A DNA stretch of 64,000 bases from assembly GCF_000219725.1 (NCBI RefSeq), contig NC_015732.1, forward strand, positions 2,858,972 through 2,922,971. Reading direction: 5' to 3'. Positions within the stretch are counted from its first letter, which is position 1. Every line of letters begins with the position of its first letter. The stretch is from Gracilinema caldarium DSM 7334. GTDB lineage: Bacteria > Spirochaetota > Spirochaetia > Treponematales > Breznakiellaceae. A program made the translations under genes and the position numbers. The notes under the pieces are model-generated. The model had not been told where the DNA came from, did not search any database, and worked only from the letters and a program-made list of their open reading frames with translations. Shown here piece after piece: positions 26,523 through 34,212 of the stretch.

Positions 26523-26660
26523 CTATTTATGAATATAGTTAAAATGTATTGTCTTCCTAATCCAAATTAAATTTTCAGGCCTATTATCATATCCATTATT
26601 TGAAATATGATGCACTTGCCATACGCCTAAGGATTCATTTTGAGTTTCATCTTTTTCTGG
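26523..26660 (-). pseudogene. C-terminal fragment of an HNH-type endonuclease
   Basis: Outside the left end of the insertion sequence, the minus strand encodes PEKDETQNESLGVW, then QVHHISNNGYDNRPENLIWI and a short tail ending at a TAG at 26523-26525. The HH..N...NRPENL pattern matches HNH nucleases of the phage/homing type. The upstream portion is replaced by the insertion sequence, and I could not recognise its N-terminal half beyond the right end of the element. It looks like a gene remnant cut by the insertion; a free-standing small protein is unlikely. Confidence 0.5.
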
Positions 26661-26697
26661 TATGTAAACAGAGAAGGTACCCCCCTGGCCTACGCAA
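26659..26697 (+). repeat. Left terminal inverted repeat
   Basis: Thirty-nine bases whose exact reverse complement is at 27667-27705. The core reads ACAGAGAAGGTACCCCCC. Confidence 0.9.
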
Positions 26698-26756
26698 ATC
26701 CAACGGATCTGGGTAGAATACTGTATGAATAACAACAATACACAGGAGGGTACCAA

Positions 26757-27674
26757 ATGATAGAACTAGAATATAAGTATTATGAATTTATCAAGAAATG
26801 GGAAGACCGGTATGAACTGCGGTTAAAATTGGTTCAGGATGCCCTAGCGCATGGGACAAAACCTACCGCCCGGAAGTATGGCACCACCGTCAAGACTGTG
26901 CGGAAGTGGGTGAAACGGTATGAAGCGGATAAGAAGGCTGGATTGGAAGAACGAAGCCGGAAACCCCAGAGGAGCCCTCAAGCCACAAAACCGTGGGTAC
27001 GCTTCAAACTGATACAGGAGGCGCAGCACCTACGGGAGAAGGGGAAAAGTGCAGTTCGACTGAGACGTCAAGTATCTGGATGATATTCCAGAACTCTATA
27101 CCGAATATAAACATCACCATCTGCCCAAATATCAATTTACGGCCCGCTGTGTGCGAACTGGGGCAGTTTTTATGGCCTATGGCCGAGAGAAATCGGTCAC
27201 GAATGCAGCGCTCTTTCTCTTACATCTGCACAAACACCTGCAGCGCTTTGGGCTGTCCCTTGCCGGATCGGTCATACAGACAGACAATGGGACCGAGTTT
27301 ACCGCTCCCTGGAACAGCGACAAAGTCACGATGTTTACCCATGTGGTAGAGCGATGTTGTCTGGCACGACACCATCTGATTCCACCAGGAGCAAAGACGT
27401 ACCAAAGTGATGTCGAGAGTTTTCATCGATGGGTAGAGGAGGAACTCTATGCGGCTGAATCTTTTGGGAGTAAAATTGAGTTTTAATGAAAGCGGCGTAT
27501 TACCAAGCTTATTTCAATTGTCAGCGTTACAATCACTACAAGGGGGAAACCCCACTAGAGCTGGTACGGGAAACCTATCCCGAGTTGCACTCTGAAGCCT
27601 TGAAAATGAAACCCGTGATACTTGACAATGTGCTCATTCAGTACAAAGCTGAATTAGCTCAACTCGTTGCGTAG
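26757..27674 (+). pseudogene. Degenerate DDE transposase
   Basis: The first piece (ATG 26757, AGGAGG upstream) gives a helix-turn-helix, ALAHGTKPTARKYGTTVKTV, then LREKGKS; the second HTH half that should follow is missing. At about 27055 the frame resumes as VQFD-stop-DVKYLDDIPELY, the start of an integrase core, with an in-frame TGA at 27063-27065. The core continues to IQTDNGTEF (second catalytic Asp) and a third acidic region, SDVESFHRWVEEE. Near 27483 a T-run (GAGTTTTAATG) has lost one base, shifting the frame before the terminal segment YFNCQRYNHYKGETPLELV. Three independent lesions make this a pseudogene. Confidence 0.85.
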
Positions 27675-27705
27675 GCCAGGGGGGTACCTTCTCTGTTTAC
27701 ATACC
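27667..27705 (-). repeat. Right terminal inverted repeat
   Basis: Exact reverse complement of 26659-26697. Its inner end overlaps the last codons of the transposase remnant. Confidence 0.9.
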
Positions 27706-27767
27706 CAATTTAAACCAAAAGGGGCTTGCGCGAAGGCCCATACCTGTGGTAGCATCCCGCCAATTAT

Positions 27768-27875
27768 AAGCGCATCTGAAATCTCTGTCAGTTTTCAGAT
27801 GCGCTTTTACAAATCCTTTCAGGATTTGTACTTATTTAAGGAACACTTTTAAAAACTGAAGTTTTTTAAAGTGTT
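27768..27875. other. Cluster of three hairpins upstream of the pyr leader
   Basis: Part of a 413-bp stretch (27706-28118) without a normal-sized gene. Three inverted repeats follow one another: a 14-bp perfect stem at 27768-27806 (AAGCGCATCTGAAA arm, followed by TT), a 9-bp perfect stem at 27809-27829 (ACAAATCCT arm, 3-nt loop) and a 16-bp stem with one mismatch at 27842-27875 (AACACTTTTAAAAACT arm, 2-nt loop). The last ends 6 nt before the ribosome-binding site of the leader peptide. I saw no convincing promoter in the block. Confidence 0.7.
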
Positions 27876-27890
27876 AATTTGGGGGATAGG

Positions 27891-28037
27891 ATGCACCTAC
27901 AAAAAGGTACCCATAACGGCACCGTACAGTTCATGCCAGAACCAGCCCCCGGTACTATTTTTTCTTTTGCTTTTTATAGCCGCCCTGTCAGGGCGGCTTT
28001 TTTTTGCCTTCACAGGCTTTTGAAAGACGATTGTTGA
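27891..28037 (+). CDS. Putative pyrBI-type leader peptide (pyrL-like)
   Basis: A 48-codon frame begins at ATG 27891 with GGGGGA 4 nt upstream; an in-frame ATG at 27933 is an alternative. Codons for APGTIFSFAFYS are written in a U-rich stretch (27953-27978) that abuts a strong terminator hairpin, and the frame reads through the hairpin and its T-run to a TGA at 28035-28037. In E. coli pyrL, the same layout lets low UTP stall RNA polymerase on the U-rich tract, so the trailing ribosome blocks the terminator. The peptide sequence itself is not expected to be conserved. The homology is architectural, not by sequence. Confidence 0.6.
   Translation: MHLQKGTHNGTVQFMPEPAPGTIFSFAFYSRPVRAAFFCLHRLLKDDC
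27979..28005 (+). terminator. Rho-independent attenuator of the pyr operon
   Basis: GCCGCCC-TGTCA-GGGCGGC forms a GC-rich stem followed directly by eight T residues, about 115 bp before pyrB and inside the leader-peptide frame. No upstream gene ends here, so it is better explained as an attenuator than a gene-end terminator. A second palindrome, GCCCTTATAAGGGC (28087-28100), lies between it and the pyrB ribosome-binding site. Confidence 0.8.
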
Positions 28038-28118
28038 AATATGATTGCAGCTTATAACAGCCTGTTCACTATTAAAATAAAAGCTGGCCCTTATAAGGGC
28101 TGGTACTAGGGAGGCCCC

Positions 28119-29048
28119 ATGCTGAAAGGCAGACACCTTGTAGACCCTCGGGATCTGCAACTCACAGAACTGGATGCCCTGTTCTCACTGGCAGAGCAGA
28201 TCCAGAAAAACCAGAGCCACTATCGGGATCTATGCCGGGGACAGATTCTGGCTACCCTCTTTTTTGAACCCAGCACCCGAACTCGCCTCAGTTTTGAAGC
28301 GGCCATGCTGAGGCTTGGCGGTTCCTGTCTCGGCTTCGCCGAACCTTCCTCCAGTTCGGTAGCCAAGGGGGAAAGCCTGGCCGACACGATCCGGACCGTA
28401 GCGGCCTACGCGGACCTCATTGTCATGCGGAATCCCAAGGAAGGGGCTGCCCTCTTAGCTTCCCGCTATTCATCGGTCCCAGTAGTTAATGCGGGCGATG
28501 GGGGCCACCACCACCCTACCCAGACCTTGACGGATCTCCTGACCATCCGCCAGCTCCGGGGTACCACCGAAGGACTTACCATAGGCTTCTGCGGCGACCT
28601 CCGCTTCGGCCGAACGGTGCATTCGCTGGCAGAAACCCTGGCCCGGTATAAAAACAACAAAATGGTCTTTATCTCTCCGCCGGAACTTAGGATTCCCGAT
28701 TACATCAAAACCGGAGCCCTGGCTAAAAACCAGATTGAATACCGGGAAACGGACCGGCTCGAAGCGGTCATGGGCGACCTGGATGTGCTGTACATGACCC
28801 GGGTCCAGCGGGAACGGTTCTTTAATGAAGAAGATTATGTCCGGCTCAAGGACTTCTATATCCTGGACAATGAAAAATTAAAAACCGCAAAAAAGGACCT
28901 TATCATCCTGCACCCCCTGCCCCGGGTGAATGAAATCGCCATTGAGGTCGATGCAGACCCCCGGGCAGTCTACTTTGCCCAGGCAAAATACGGCATGTAT
29001 GTCCGTATGGCCCTGATAGCCTCACTGTTAGGAGTTGCATCATGTTAA
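28119..29048 (+). CDS. pyrB: Aspartate carbamoyltransferase catalytic subunit
   Basis: A 309-residue protein, the standard length. The carbamoyl-phosphate motif STRTR (52-56) and the [14 protein letters not shown] aspartate/carbamate block are intact. It condenses carbamoyl phosphate with aspartate in the first committed step of UMP synthesis. AGGGAGG lies 5 nt before the ATG. It overlaps pyrI by 7 bp, so a PyrB3/PyrI2-type holoenzyme with allosteric control is expected. Confidence 0.95.
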
Positions 29049-29476
29049 ACATAGCAAAAATAAAGAACGGCATCGTCATTGACCACATTAAAGCAGGCCA
29101 GGGCCTGCGGATCTTTAACTGGCTCGGCCTCGGCAAGGCGCCCTACACCGTCGCCTTTGTGGTAAACGCCGAATCAAAGCGCATGGGACGGAAGGATATC
29201 ATCAAGATTGATAACGAAATCACCATCGACTTCGCAGTCCTGGGCCTCATCGACCCGAACATCACCGTAAACATCATCGAAAACGAACAAATCACCGAAA
29301 AAATCCGGCTGAAACTCCCCGAACGAGTAGAAAACATCCTCATCTGTAAAAACCCCCGGTGCATCACCGCCACAGAACGCTACGCCCCCCACATATTTCA
29401 CCTGGTGGACCCAGAGCAGGGGCTCTACCGCTGTGAATACTGCGATGAGCAGCGAAGCACCGAGGACTTCCGGTAG
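29042..29476 (+). CDS. pyrI: Aspartate carbamoyltransferase regulatory subunit
   Basis: A 144-residue protein with the N-terminal allosteric (nucleotide-binding) domain and a C-terminal zinc domain; the four zinc ligands are visible in CKNPRC and CEYC near the C-terminus. It should bind CTP/ATP and tune PyrB. Its start codon lies inside the last codons of pyrB (overlap 29042-29048), so translation is coupled. The PyrI-containing class matches the pyrBI-style attenuator upstream. Confidence 0.95.
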
Positions 29477-29485
29477 GACAGGCCC

Positions 29486-30838
29486 ATGAGAATTATTTTT
29501 GAACAGGTCCGGCTGGTAGACCACAGCATGGACCGCCGGGGCACCCTGGTTATTGAAAACGGACACATTAAAACCATTTCATTTAACTCGAAGGAAGACT
29601 TCCAGGTTGATGAACGGCTCCCGGGCCCGGCGCTGCGCATTGACTGTTCCGGCACCGATTGGGTACTCATGCCTGCCTTCGTGGACCTGCACGCCCATTT
29701 CCGCGACCCGGGCTTTCCGGAAAAGGAAACCCTGGAATCGGCGAGCCTGGCCGCTGTCGCCGGAGGCTATGGTACGGTGGTCTGTATGGCCAACACCAAA
29801 CCGCCCATCGACAACCTGGATCTGGCCAAGCTCCTGCGGGAACGCGCTCATCAGCTCGGACTCATCGACCTGTACCCGGTGCTCTCTTTGACCCGGGGCA
29901 TGGAAGGCCGCGACACAAGCCATCTGGAAGCCCTGGCGAAAGCCCCGGATCCGGGGGTCCTTCGGGACACGGTACGGCTCCTTTCCGAGGACGGCAGGGA
30001 CGTATCCGATGATGAGACCCTACGCAGGGCATTTCGCTCAGCTCGACAGCTGGGGCTCAGGGTAAGCTACCACTGTGACTGGGGCGGAGCCGAAGCAGAA
30101 GCGGCAAAGGCTGCAGGCGCAGCCCGGGCATACTGGAGCCGGATAGAAGAAAACCAAGCCACCGAGCGGGTCCTCAGGCTTGCCGCCGAATGCGGCATCT
30201 CTATCCACATAGCCCATGTATCCACCAAAGAAGCCCTGGAGATGGTACGAAAGGCCCAGGCCGCCGACGCTTCCCGAAGTTCGAGCCGTGAAAGCGGCCA
30301 GGATGGTTTCAGGGTTACCTGCGAGGTTACCCCCCATCACCTAGCCTGTACGGAGGAAGATGCGGAAGAGCTCGGCCCTGAAAGCATTGGCCGGGTCAAT
30401 CCCCCCCTCAGGAACACCGAAGACATTACAGCCCTGATCAGGGGCATACAGGATGGCACCATCACCGCCATTGCGACAGACCATGCGCCCCATACTGAGT
30501 CTGATAAAATCCAGGGGGCACCGGGCTTTATTGGCCTCGAAACAGCCTTTGCAGTCTCCTATACTACGCTGGTTGAGGGAAACCATTGCTCTCTGCAAAA
30601 GCTTTCAGCCCTGATGAGCTACAAGCCCAGCCGCATCCTGGGCCTCACCGACCGGGGCATCCTCGCCCCCTGGGCAAGGGCAGACCTGGTCCTGGTAGAC
30701 CCCCAGGCAAAAGTAGTGGTTCAAAAAACAGATTTCAAGTCCCGGAGCAGTAACAGTCCTTTCATCGGCCGAAAACTGCAGGGCCGGATCCTCATGACCC
30801 TGCACCAAGGACAGATTGTATATGAGGGAAGGCGGTAA
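29486..30838 (+). CDS. pyrC: Dihydroorotase (type I)
   Basis: A 450-residue amidohydrolase. The metal-binding HAHFRDPG sits near residue 70; further ligands are in SYHCDWG, IHIAHVSTKEA and the C-terminal ATDHAPH. It cyclises carbamoyl aspartate to dihydroorotate. A Ser/Arg-rich insertion (about residues 258-272) separates IAHVSTKEALE from VTCEVTPHHL and is not typical. The gene starts 9 bp after pyrI. The class I length and motifs distinguish it from the shorter E. coli-type PyrC. Confidence 0.93.
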   Translation: MRIIFEQVRLVDHSMDRRGTLVIENGHIKTISFNSKEDFQVDERLPGPALRIDCSGTDWVLMPAFVDLHAHFRDPGFPEKETLESASLAAVAGGYGTVVCMANTKPPIDNLDLAKLLRERAHQLGLIDLYPVLSLTRGMEGRDTSHLEALAKAPDPGVLRDTVRLLSEDGRDVSDDETLRRAFRSARQLGLRVSYHCDWGGAEAEAAKAAGAARAYWSRIEENQATERVLRLAAECGISIHIAHVSTKEALEMVRKAQAADASRSSSRESGQDGFRVTCEVTPHHLACTEEDAEELGPESIGRVNPPLRNTEDITALIRGIQDGTITAIATDHAPHTESDKIQGAPGFIGLETAFAVSYTTLVEGNHCSLQKLSALMSYKPSRILGLTDRGILAPWARADLVLVDPQAKVVVQKTDFKSRSSNSPFIGRKLQGRILMTLHQGQIVYEGRR

Positions 30839-30879
30839 CGGCCTCGCCCCTCTTAAAACCATGAAGTAAGGAGAACGTG

Positions 30880-31884
30880 ATGAGATTACAAATGGATGCC
30901 CTCTATGATTCTGTACGGGATCGGGGGCCGGTCTGTGTGGGCCTTGATACGGCCCCGGAATATATCCCTCCCCGGGAACGGCTCCATGCCGCCTCAGAAG
31001 CCAGGGCCCTCTATAATTTTAACCGGGCTATTATCGATGCAACCAGGGATGTTGCAGCCTGCTATAAGGTTCAGATTGCCTATTACGAAGCCCTGGGGCT
31101 TCCGGGACTTGAGGCTTACCGGGACACCCTACGCTATATAAGAGAACAGAAAGGTATTGTCATAGCAGACATTAAACGGGGGGACATTGCCGATACAGCA
31201 AAATGTTACGCTAAAGCCCATTTCGAAGGGGATTTTGAAGCAGACCTAGTTACCCTTTCACCCTATATGGGGATGGATTCCATCGAGCCATGGTTTAGCT
31301 ATGCACAAGAACGGGGAAAGGGAGCCTTTGTCCTCATGCGGACCAGCAACAAGGGTATGCGGGACTTTGAATACCAGGAACTGGCTTCGGGGGGACGGCT
31401 CTACCATGAGGTGGGCCGCAAAATGACAGCCCTGACGAAGGAATGCCGGGGCGAACGGGGGTATGGAGCCTTTGGTGTGGTGGTCGGCTGTACAGAGGCA
31501 GAAGAATCCGAAACCATACGGCAGACCTACCGGGACCTGTTCTTCCTCATACCCGGTTATGGAGCTCAGGGAGGAGCCGCCCAGGATGCGGCCCGATTAT
31601 TGATTGATGGAAACGGCGGGGTGGTCAATGCTTCCCGGTCCATCCTGAAGGCCTGGTTTACCGACTTTGAATCCCAGAACCTGTCCCAGGCGACCTATAA
31701 CGACGTAGCCGCCGCCGCCCGCCGGGAGGTCATAAGAATGAAAACCGACATTCTCGCCGCCTGCGGCGTCCCGGAAGGGACCGCCAGTACGGCCGCTACC
31801 GGGTACTCCAGTACAACCTCAGACTCAGCCCCAGGGTCAGGCAATAATCCTCACCCCACTGCTCCGGGGGTATCCCATGGCTGA
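30880..31884 (+). CDS. pyrF: Orotidine-5'-phosphate decarboxylase (type 2)
   Basis: A 334-residue enzyme of the longer PyrF2 branch. The catalytic Lys/Asp cluster is in ADIKRGDIADTAK (residues about 97-109), followed by VTLSPYMGMDSIEPW and FVLMRTSNKG. It decarboxylates OMP to UMP. I chose ATG 30880 over the GTG directly before it because AAGGAG is then 6 nt away. The final ~40 residues (Ser/Thr/Gly/Pro-rich, after AACGVPEG) are low-complexity and extend beyond the catalytic domain. Its stop overlaps pyrK by 8 bp. Confidence 0.93.
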   Translation: MRLQMDALYDSVRDRGPVCVGLDTAPEYIPPRERLHAASEARALYNFNRAIIDATRDVAACYKVQIAYYEALGLPGLEAYRDTLRYIREQKGIVIADIKRGDIADTAKCYAKAHFEGDFEADLVTLSPYMGMDSIEPWFSYAQERGKGAFVLMRTSNKGMRDFEYQELASGGRLYHEVGRKMTALTKECRGERGYGAFGVVVGCTEAEESETIRQTYRDLFFLIPGYGAQGGAAQDAARLLIDGNGGVVNASRSILKAWFTDFESQNLSQATYNDVAAAARREVIRMKTDILAACGVPEGTASTAATGYSSTTSDSAPGSGNNPHPTAPGVSHG

Positions 31885-32650
31885 TTCCAGCACCTGTCAT
31901 CATGATCGGGCCTTTTTATCCTGCACCATCGTTGCTAATGCACCGATTCATACTGTTCCCGGCGAAGGGCTTGTTACCGAAATGCAGGTAAGCTGGGAAG
32001 GCCCCGTACCCCAGCCAGGCCAGTTTTTCATGCTTAGGCTTGAGCGGAGCGGGGTTCTTTTAGGCCGGCCCATCAGTGTCCTGGGATACCGGAACGGGCT
32101 TGTAAGCTTTATGATTGCCGAACGGGGCAAGGGCAGCCGGGAACTAGTAACAGCCCGAGCCGGGGAAGCCATAGAACTTTCAGGCCCCCTTGGAAACACC
32201 TGGCCTGTGCCGCCTCTCGGTGATGGTCCCATAGCCCTCGTTGGGGGCGGCATCGGCATTGCCCCCCTCATCTACCTGAGCGAAAGGCTTCCGCCTGGAA
32301 GTTTCCATTTCTACGGCGGCTTCCGTTCCAAGCCCTACGGACTGGAAGGCTTTCCACCGGAAAGCCTCACCCTTGCAAGCGAAGATGGTTCTGTAGGCTA
32401 CCGGGGCCGGATTCCTGACGTTTTTAATCCCGCCGGCTTCCGGGCTGTGTACGCCTGCGGACCAACACCGATGCTGAAACGCATTGCAGAAGTATGCGGT
32501 CAGGCGCCCTGTTATATCAGTCTGGAAGAACGGATGGCCTGCGGCGTTGGGGCCTGCCTGGGCTGTACGGTCCGTACCACCCGGGGCAACCGTCGCTGTT
32601 GTGTCGATGGCCCCATTTTCCCCGCAGCGGAGGTGCTCTTTGATGCATAA
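31877..32650 (+). CDS. pyrK: Dihydroorotate dehydrogenase electron-transfer subunit
   Basis: A 257-residue flavin/iron-sulfur protein. RPISVLG (FAD contact), GGGIGIAPL (NAD site) and the C-terminal CGVGACLGCTV...C cluster for a [2Fe-2S] centre are all visible. With PyrD type 1B it makes an NAD-linked dihydroorotate dehydrogenase. Its start lies within the end of pyrF and its end overlaps pyrD by 8 bp, so the three are tightly coupled. Confidence 0.93.
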   Translation: MADSSTCHHDRAFLSCTIVANAPIHTVPGEGLVTEMQVSWEGPVPQPGQFFMLRLERSGVLLGRPISVLGYRNGLVSFMIAERGKGSRELVTARAGEAIELSGPLGNTWPVPPLGDGPIALVGGGIGIAPLIYLSERLPPGSFHFYGGFRSKPYGLEGFPPESLTLASEDGSVGYRGRIPDVFNPAGFRAVYACGPTPMLKRIAEVCGQAPCYISLEERMACGVGACLGCTVRTTRGNRRCCVDGPIFPAAEVLFDA

Positions 32651-33569
32651 CAATAACATACAACCGGACCTGTCGGTACAGATTGCAGGGATCACCTTTA
32701 AGAATCCCGTCATTGCCGCTTCCGGGACCTTCGGTTATGGCCAGGAATATGCGGGGCTCATCGATGTATCCCGGCTGGGAGGTATCTGTACCAAGGGGCT
32801 TACCCTGCATCCCCGGGAAGGGAACCGGGGTCGGCGGCTCCACGAAACAGCCTCGGGACTCATGAACTCCATCGGCCTCGAAAATCCGGGAATTCCCGCC
32901 TTTATCGAACAGGAACTCCCGGCCATGCTGGAGCTGGGTCCCCGGGTAATCGCCAACCTTTCCGGCTCTACTGTGGAAGAATACCAGGAAGGGGCCCGGC
33001 TCCTTTCGGCCACCGGGATTGATATGATAGAACTTAATATTTCCTGCCCCAACGTTAAAGCCGGGGGCATGGCCTTCGGCCTCTGTCCTGCCGATGCGGC
33101 CACTGTGGTTCAGGCGGTTCGCCGGGTCTGTGATAAACCCCTCATGGTAAAGTTATCCCCTAATGCCCCGGACCTGGTTGGCGTAGCCCTGGCCTGTATC
33201 AACGCCGGCGCAGACGCCCTGAGCCTCGTGAATACCTTTAAAGCCCTGGCCTTCGACATCCGGCGGCGCACACCCATTTTTGACCATGTGACTGCGGGCC
33301 TCTCCGGCCCTGCCATTAAACCCCTGGCCCTCCGCATGGTCTGGGATGTGTGCGCCGCCGTGCAAGTACCCGTGGTGGGAATGGGCGGCATCGCCAGTAC
33401 GGAGGATGCCCTGGAGTTTTTCATGGCCGGGGCCACCGCCATCCAGATAGGCACCGCTACGTTCAGCCGTCCATCAACCATGATTGATATTATCGAGGGC
33501 CTGGAACAGTATATGGAGACCGAACGGATTAGCCATCTTTCAGAGCTTTCCCTCCAGGATCGGGAGTGA
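32643..33569 (+). CDS. pyrD: Dihydroorotate dehydrogenase catalytic subunit (type 1B)
   Basis: A 308-residue FMN enzyme starting MHNNNIQPDLSVQIAG. GGAGG lies 9 nt before ATG 32643, inside the last codons of pyrK. The active-site region NISCPNVKAGG with its catalytic Cys, the KLSPNAPD segment and the FMN-binding GMGGI / MAGATAIQIGTA blocks are clear. Pairing with PyrK makes it class 1B (NAD-dependent). Longer in-frame extensions run antisense-free through pyrK but would lack a ribosome-binding site. Confidence 0.95.
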   Translation: MHNNNIQPDLSVQIAGITFKNPVIAASGTFGYGQEYAGLIDVSRLGGICTKGLTLHPREGNRGRRLHETASGLMNSIGLENPGIPAFIEQELPAMLELGPRVIANLSGSTVEEYQEGARLLSATGIDMIELNISCPNVKAGGMAFGLCPADAATVVQAVRRVCDKPLMVKLSPNAPDLVGVALACINAGADALSLVNTFKALAFDIRRRTPIFDHVTAGLSGPAIKPLALRMVWDVCAAVQVPVVGMGGIASTEDALEFFMAGATAIQIGTATFSRPSTMIDIIEGLEQYMETERISHLSELSLQDRE

Positions 33570-33588
33570 ACATAAGGAGAAACACAAT

Positions 33589-34212
33589 ATGCAGGACAAC
33601 AATCAGCAAAAAAATAAGGAAAACAGGACCTTAGAACTACTCCGCCAATCGGAGGCCATGCTGGAAGGGCACTTTCTGCTTTCTTCGGGCCGCCACTCAG
33701 ACCGATATTTTCAGTGCGCCCGGCTGCTCCAGTACCCTGACCGGGCAGCAGAAGCCTTGGCACCAGTCGTGGCAGCCCTTAAGGAGGAAATCGCCGCCGG
33801 CAGGCTTGCCATAGACCTCGTGGTAGGGCCTGCCATAGGGGGCATTATTGTAGCCTATGAACTAGCCCGGCAACTGGGACTTCCGGCCCTTTTTACCGAA
33901 CGGGATGATACGGGTGCCATGACCCTGCGGCGGGGTTTTGAGATACAGCAGGGCCAGCGGATCCTCATTGCGGAGGACGTGGTAACCACCGGAAAATCCT
34001 CCGAAGAGAGTGCCGCAGTCCTGGAACAGCTGGGAGGCCAGGTCGTTGCCCTGGCCTGTGTGGTAGACCGCCGTGCACCGGATGCACAGGTACGCTGGCC
34101 CATCTTCCCGGCCTGCAAGGTCAGTGTGGCCAACTGGGATGCGGCTGACTGTGCGCTCTGCAAACAGCAGATACCCTATGTAAAACCGGGGTCCCGGAAA
34201 TTTATCACCTGA
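33589..34212 (+). CDS. pyrE: Orotate phosphoribosyltransferase
   Basis: A 207-residue phosphoribosyltransferase. The PRPP motif is ILIAEDVVTTGKS (about residues 124-136), and VVGPAIGGIIVAYELARQLG and FTERDD match the family. It converts orotate to OMP. AAGGAG lies 9 nt before ATG 33589. It is the last gene of the pyr block; carAB is not in this window. Confidence 0.95.
   Translation: MQDNNQQKNKENRTLELLRQSEAMLEGHFLLSSGRHSDRYFQCARLLQYPDRAAEALAPVVAALKEEIAAGRLAIDLVVGPAIGGIIVAYELARQLGLPALFTERDDTGAMTLRRGFEIQQGQRILIAEDVVTTGKSSEESAAVLEQLGGQVVALACVVDRRAPDAQVRWPIFPACKVSVANWDAADCALCKQQIPYVKPGSRKFIT

Follow-up and report, generated by a model that had tools for sequence, protein, structure and literature searches.

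A predicted translation-coupled, UTP-sensing attenuator of the pyrBI type precedes pyrB in Gracilinema caldarium and related spirochaetes

The region upstream of pyrB in Gracilinema caldarium (formerly Spirochaeta caldaria H1) probably functions as a UTP-sensing, translation-coupled transcription attenuator of the pyrBI type, a function deduced from sequence to which we assign a probability of roughly 0.8. pyrBI attenuation is a textbook example of control through transcription–translation coupling and is known mainly from enteric bacteria. The spirochaete system, as predicted here, follows the same logic, but with an unrelated leader that often appears to be leaderless and that also occurs in a compact form. 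A prior report of a pyrBI-type attenuator in spirochaetes was not found in the open-access literature, most subscription papers lying outside this scope. G. caldarium is a hot-spring spirochaete whose genome consists of a single contig of 3,239,340 bp, and the leader layout described below recurs in many of its relatives from termite guts.

Architecture of the pyrB leader

The window, the whole stretch of 64,000 nucleotides that was analysed, carries the leader and the pyr operon on its forward strand, and all coordinates refer to it. The leader promoter, recognised from the sequence and a same-genus alignment, comprises a -35 element TTGCGC (27726–27731) and a -10 element TAGCAT (27750–27755) separated by an 18-nt spacer. 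It is conserved in three same-genus genomes as TTGCGC/TTGCAA ... TAGCATCCCGCCAATTA, and transcription is predicted to start near A27762. A sequence-only reading of this DNA had assigned a ribosome-binding site to the leader frame; a Shine–Dalgarno-like GGGGG does precede the ATG (27881–27885), although it is weak in the window. At this position the relatives show GGGAGGGG or GGGGGTAGG, and GGGAGGGG stands before the ATG in two same-genus genomes.

The leader ORF (27891–28037) starts with ATG, comprises 48 codons (MHLQKGTHNGTVQFMPEPAPGTIFSFAFYSRPVRAAFFCLHRLLKDDC) and crosses both a U-rich tract and an intrinsic terminator. The U-rich tract (27956–27977), defined by the sequence and by T enrichment across the family, is the proposed UTP-sensitive pausing region; 17 T lie within the 25 nt ending 3 nt 5' of the GC stem. 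The terminator (27978–28005) consists of a 9-bp GC-rich stem with a 3-nt loop (27978–27998, AGCCGCCCTGTCAGGGCGGCT) followed by a run containing eight T, has a calculated folding energy of -16.9 kcal/mol, and is identical in its core in the alignment of three same-genus genomes. The start-to-stem distance is 88 nt, and the terminator ends 113 nt upstream of the pyrB start at 28119. The frame, the U-rich tract and the eight-T terminator are therefore present as the sequence-only reading had described them. Farther upstream, an IS481-like transposase remnant, broken into several frames and with similar flanking ends, occupies 26640–27710, between a chemotaxis-protein gene and the pyr promoter.

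The first controlled gene, pyrB (28119–29048), encodes the aspartate carbamoyltransferase catalytic subunit (TIGR00670, 345 bits, above cut-off), and pyrI (29042–29476) encodes the regulatory subunit (NF002063, 212 bits, above cut-off; PF01948 and PF02748). The two reading frames overlap, as previously claimed, pyrI beginning at 29042 before pyrB ends at 29048. The remaining operon genes (29486–34212), each assigned by an NCBIfam match, are pyrC (29486–30838), pyrF (30877–31884), pyrK (31877–32650), pyrD (ending at 33569) and pyrE (ending at 34212). Within the G. caldarium genome the attenuator seems confined to pyrB, since the leader–terminator arrangement was not found at carA, pyrG or two genes of the nucleobase-permease family.

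The leader ORF and terminator are retained across the family

The upstream regions of 140 pyrB genes from the same family were compared with that of the window (141 in total), each oriented by the encoded N-terminus. A CCGCC...GGCGG-type terminator lies within 165 nt of pyrB in 63 of the 141, window included, representing 27 of 49 genera; the other 78 genes have no recognisable CCGCC terminator of this type. The testable set comprised 50 leaders with a scorable promoter, that of the window being assigned manually by comparison within the genus, and a leader ORF was counted when an ATG shortly 3' of the promoter opened a frame that ended no more than 10 nt short of the stem or ran past it. Such a promoter and ORF are present in 43 of the 50 leaders, against 9.35 ± 2.63 expected from dinucleotide shuffles of the same leaders. 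Because many of the family genomes are MAGs and the sequences are related, these cases are non-independent; averaging by genus, a partial correction, gives a leader ORF reaching the terminator in 16.25 of 21 genera versus 3.76 expected. The significance thus comes from the family comparison. The window leader alone is only suggestive, as a chance ORF reaches the terminator in about 13% of its shuffles. The family data agree with the pyrL-type layout that the sequence-only reading had proposed.

In the relatives, the leader stop codon falls 3–7 nt before the stem (-7 to -3) or past its 5' arm. These positions are inside the range over which an E. coli ribosome represses a terminator when the stop codon is a few nucleotides away, an effect lost beyond approximately 27–30 nt (PMC4824070). 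The seven negatives include two near-misses, L128 with a GTG start and a stop at -6, and L155 with a stop 12 nt before the stem. The leader peptides differ among relatives, and their register with respect to the terminator varies even within the genus (L089). Peptide conservation was consequently left out as evidence, such variation being expected if only translation matters. Within genus g13 (L133, L140, L147, L160, L176 and L178), the leader peptides begin alike, with a MKNRxWK-like sequence. Several g13 leaders also share a conserved hairpin (CTTCCnGTGTAC...) 5' of the U-tract, about 80–115 nt before pyrB, which is a possible pause hairpin.

Proposed mechanism and relation to the enteric system

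In the mechanism that we infer, RNA polymerase would start near 27762 and a ribosome would load on the leader ORF. With ample UTP, polymerase would cross the U-tract fast, ahead of the ribosome, so that the terminator folds and transcription halts before pyrB. Under UTP shortage, polymerase would pause in the U-tract, and the ribosome would catch up and cover the 5' arm of the terminator, through which the frame continues; with the terminator blocked, polymerase would read on into pyrBICFKDE. In E. coli, polymerase likewise outruns the ribosome and terminates when UTP is abundant, whereas scarce UTP causes a pause on the U-requiring template and the ribosome prevents the hairpin (PMC10135430).

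The likeness to the enteric pyrBI–pyrL arrangement extends to the pyrB–pyrI start of the operon, the length of the ORF (48 codons here versus 44 in pyrL), the start-to-stem distance (88 nt here versus 89 nt in the MG1655 sequence), the U-rich tract before a terminator with a GC stem and T-run, and the continuation of the frame through that terminator. The spirochaete operon differs in having seven genes, pyrC, F, K, D and E sharing it with pyrB and pyrI. Moreover, many of the relatives have a predicted leaderless start, a compact 12-codon class has a weak U-tract, and the 5' region of G. caldarium holds a repeat insertion. The inferred start, AATTA, is without the three-T run of the E. coli start AATTTG, and start-site slippage is therefore not expected here.

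Uridine enrichment ahead of the terminator

In the 31 longer leaders, the T share climbs from about 0.25 to 0.44–0.53 over the 24 nt immediately 5' of the stem. Between -32 and -4 from the stem, these leaders contain 423 T against 265.6 predicted by the base composition of the individual leaders (z = 13.8). At the corresponding place, 48 ordinary terminators drawn from the window and from related loci carry 6.2 T per 24 nt and the attenuators 11.3 (P = 2e-10, or 5e-8 when genus means are compared). The 12 leaders of the compact class, which come from three genera, show a weaker enrichment (127 T versus 108.9 expected), with 8 of the 12 exceeding expectation.

The weak U-tract of this compact class, which nevertheless retains the ORF and terminator, would suit a translation-coupled attenuator whose signal is not UTP but, for example, general translation capacity, growth rate or leader initiation, and in which a ribosome must just arrive in time. 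We regard this as unlikely, because the 31 long leaders, to which the window belongs in type, concentrate U directly before the stem, unlike ordinary terminators, and because the controlled genes make UTP. Counted against the UTP-attenuator reading are the weak U enrichment in the short leaders, the 78 of 141 genes without a recognisable CCGCC terminator of this type, the hairpin insertion and weak Shine–Dalgarno element in the window, the downstream promoter-like site described below, and the carA, pyrG and two permease-family genes without the arrangement.

Promoter position, codon usage and known pyr regulators

If the terminator merely ended an upstream transcript, pyrB would be expected to have its own promoter 3' of it. 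A weak promoter-like sequence does lie 3' of the terminator in the window, and in L112, L117, L127, L162 and the g10 group the terminator is placed right behind an upstream gene. We nonetheless consider this explanation very improbable, since a sigma-70-like promoter and an ORF precede the terminator in 43 cases, and the gap between terminator and pyrB is often just 25–45 nt in the relatives and is occupied by the ribosome-binding site. In L112, L117, L127 and L162, the terminator lies about 9–16 nt past the stop codon of a full-length gene, and such a gene could itself serve as the 'leader'.

The U-tract encodes a Phe-rich peptide, and more codons ahead of the stem specify Phe than any other residue (58 of 314). 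This composition could in principle reflect codon-stalling attenuation of the trpL or pheL kind, for instance in response to phenylalanine, and those leaders likewise have a short ORF before a terminator. Nevertheless, the T share before the stem is 0.43, 0.49 and 0.53 at codon positions 1, 2 and 3, respectively, so that T is as frequent at position 3 as at the first two, and TTT outnumbers TTC by 46 to 12. The base, not a particular amino acid, thus appears to be favoured. Two of the 43 leaders contain a 6-nt segment able to pair with the terminator's 5' arm and the other 41 contain none, which argues against a general antiterminator, and no single codon matches the pathway product, the output of the operon being pyrimidines. 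Amino-acid-dependent stalling is accordingly hard to credit.

An intrinsic terminator in a pyr operon leader is also the layout of the PyrR-dependent attenuators of Bacillus and Clostridium, but an RNA switch bound by PyrR, another protein or a ligand is a negligible prospect here, given that a search of 200 family genomes gave no PyrR (E ≤ 1e-20; controls match in six genomes including B. subtilis), that Rfam, which includes the PyrR site RF00515, gave no match at the gathering score for the window and 20 relatives, and that the leaders have no general antiterminator complement. In place of PyrR-site RNA they have a leader ORF. The absence of a PyrR-type motif noted from the sequence thus extends to the relatives, which keep the leader frame, U-tract and terminator and have no PyrR, the opposite of a family that had lost the leader and kept a PyrR site.

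Predicted leaderless starts and the compact class

Of 46 relatives, 20 have the first ATG 6–7 nt past the -10 box, compared with 1.9 expected. The automatic promoter scan mispicked the window and two same-genus relatives, and the -10-to-ATG distances that the ORF and U-tract analyses gave for L090, L091 and the window are unreliable. Since transcription usually starts about 7 nt after the -10 box, the prediction for roughly half of the relatives is a leaderless leader ORF, with the A of its ATG as the first RNA base. In the spirochaete Leptospira interrogans, mRNAs of this leaderless kind are common (PMC5243855). Unlike the relatives with such predicted starts, the window and its genus have a 5' region and a Shine–Dalgarno-like element.

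The compact leaders have approximately 12 codons and a start-to-stem distance of about 36–50 nt. Tentatively, and with somewhat less than even confidence, they may represent a stripped-down attenuator, in which a leaderless ORF, its ATG at the predicted first base of the RNA, often ends some 6 nt short of the stem. Control would then depend on whether a ribosome binds directly to the first RNA bases before polymerase clears the terminator, so that some 40 nt of transcription would serve to sense UTP, or initiation itself. Such leaders would provide a minimal system for how closely a ribosome must follow polymerase. If the attenuator reading is correct, transcription–translation coupling operates in spirochaetes and leaderless initiation can drive attenuation. 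The compact class, the predicted leaderless leaders, and the position of the promoter upstream of a species-specific 110-bp insertion had escaped the sequence-only reading.

Distribution and origin

The spirochaete leader peptide is unrelated to that of the enteric bacteria, the window peptide giving no match to the PF08052 profile, which scores the E. coli pyrL control at 117 bits. The only Pfam match of the leader peptide, PF17176, scored 17.4 bits against a cut-off of 27 and was taken as chance. In the sister family f3, a CCGCC-type leader terminator was found in 0 of 18 sampled genomes, and pyrB there mostly follows directly on a promoter or on an upstream gene. Considering the lack of a PF08052 match, together with the f3 sample, an independent origin is probably likelier than transfer from enterics, in line with the distant or independent occurrence suggested earlier. 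The pyrBI logic, if the attenuator is real, can evolve again where PyrR is absent, in sequence-unrelated form and across dozens of spirochaete genomes. In family f4, the terminator is present in both of the two genomes compared. In one of them (L232), visual inspection indicates that the leader ORF crosses the terminator and that its end overlaps the start of pyrB (ATGGTGA), which suggests translational coupling as well.

Species-specific additions in G. caldarium

The 110-bp three-hairpin repeat insertion (27768–27877) sits between the promoter and the leader ORF. It corresponds to a gap in the alignment with the same-genus L089–L091, and three further copies align elsewhere in the G. caldarium genome. 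The stems lie at about 27768–27807, 27808–27830 and 27842–27875, with folding energies of -21.5, -10.6 and -11.4 kcal/mol, respectively; behind the first lies TTTTACA, a short T-run with interruptions that makes a poor terminator tail. Reading by eye also showed, 3' of the terminator and in this species only, a weak promoter-like sequence, TTGTTG-16-TATAAC (28031–28058). The repeat, transcribed according to the predicted start, or the downstream promoter-like site could be modifiers of control in G. caldarium. The palindromes of the element are GCGCATCTGA.., AAATCCTTTCAGGATTT and AAAAACTGAAGTTTTT, the last of which also occurs in other family members, such as L144 and L211. A small hairpin, GCCCTTATAAGGGC (28087–28101), lies between the terminator and the pyrB ribosome-binding site, and the sequence surrounding both this hairpin and the promoter-like site is absent from or different in the same-genus genomes.
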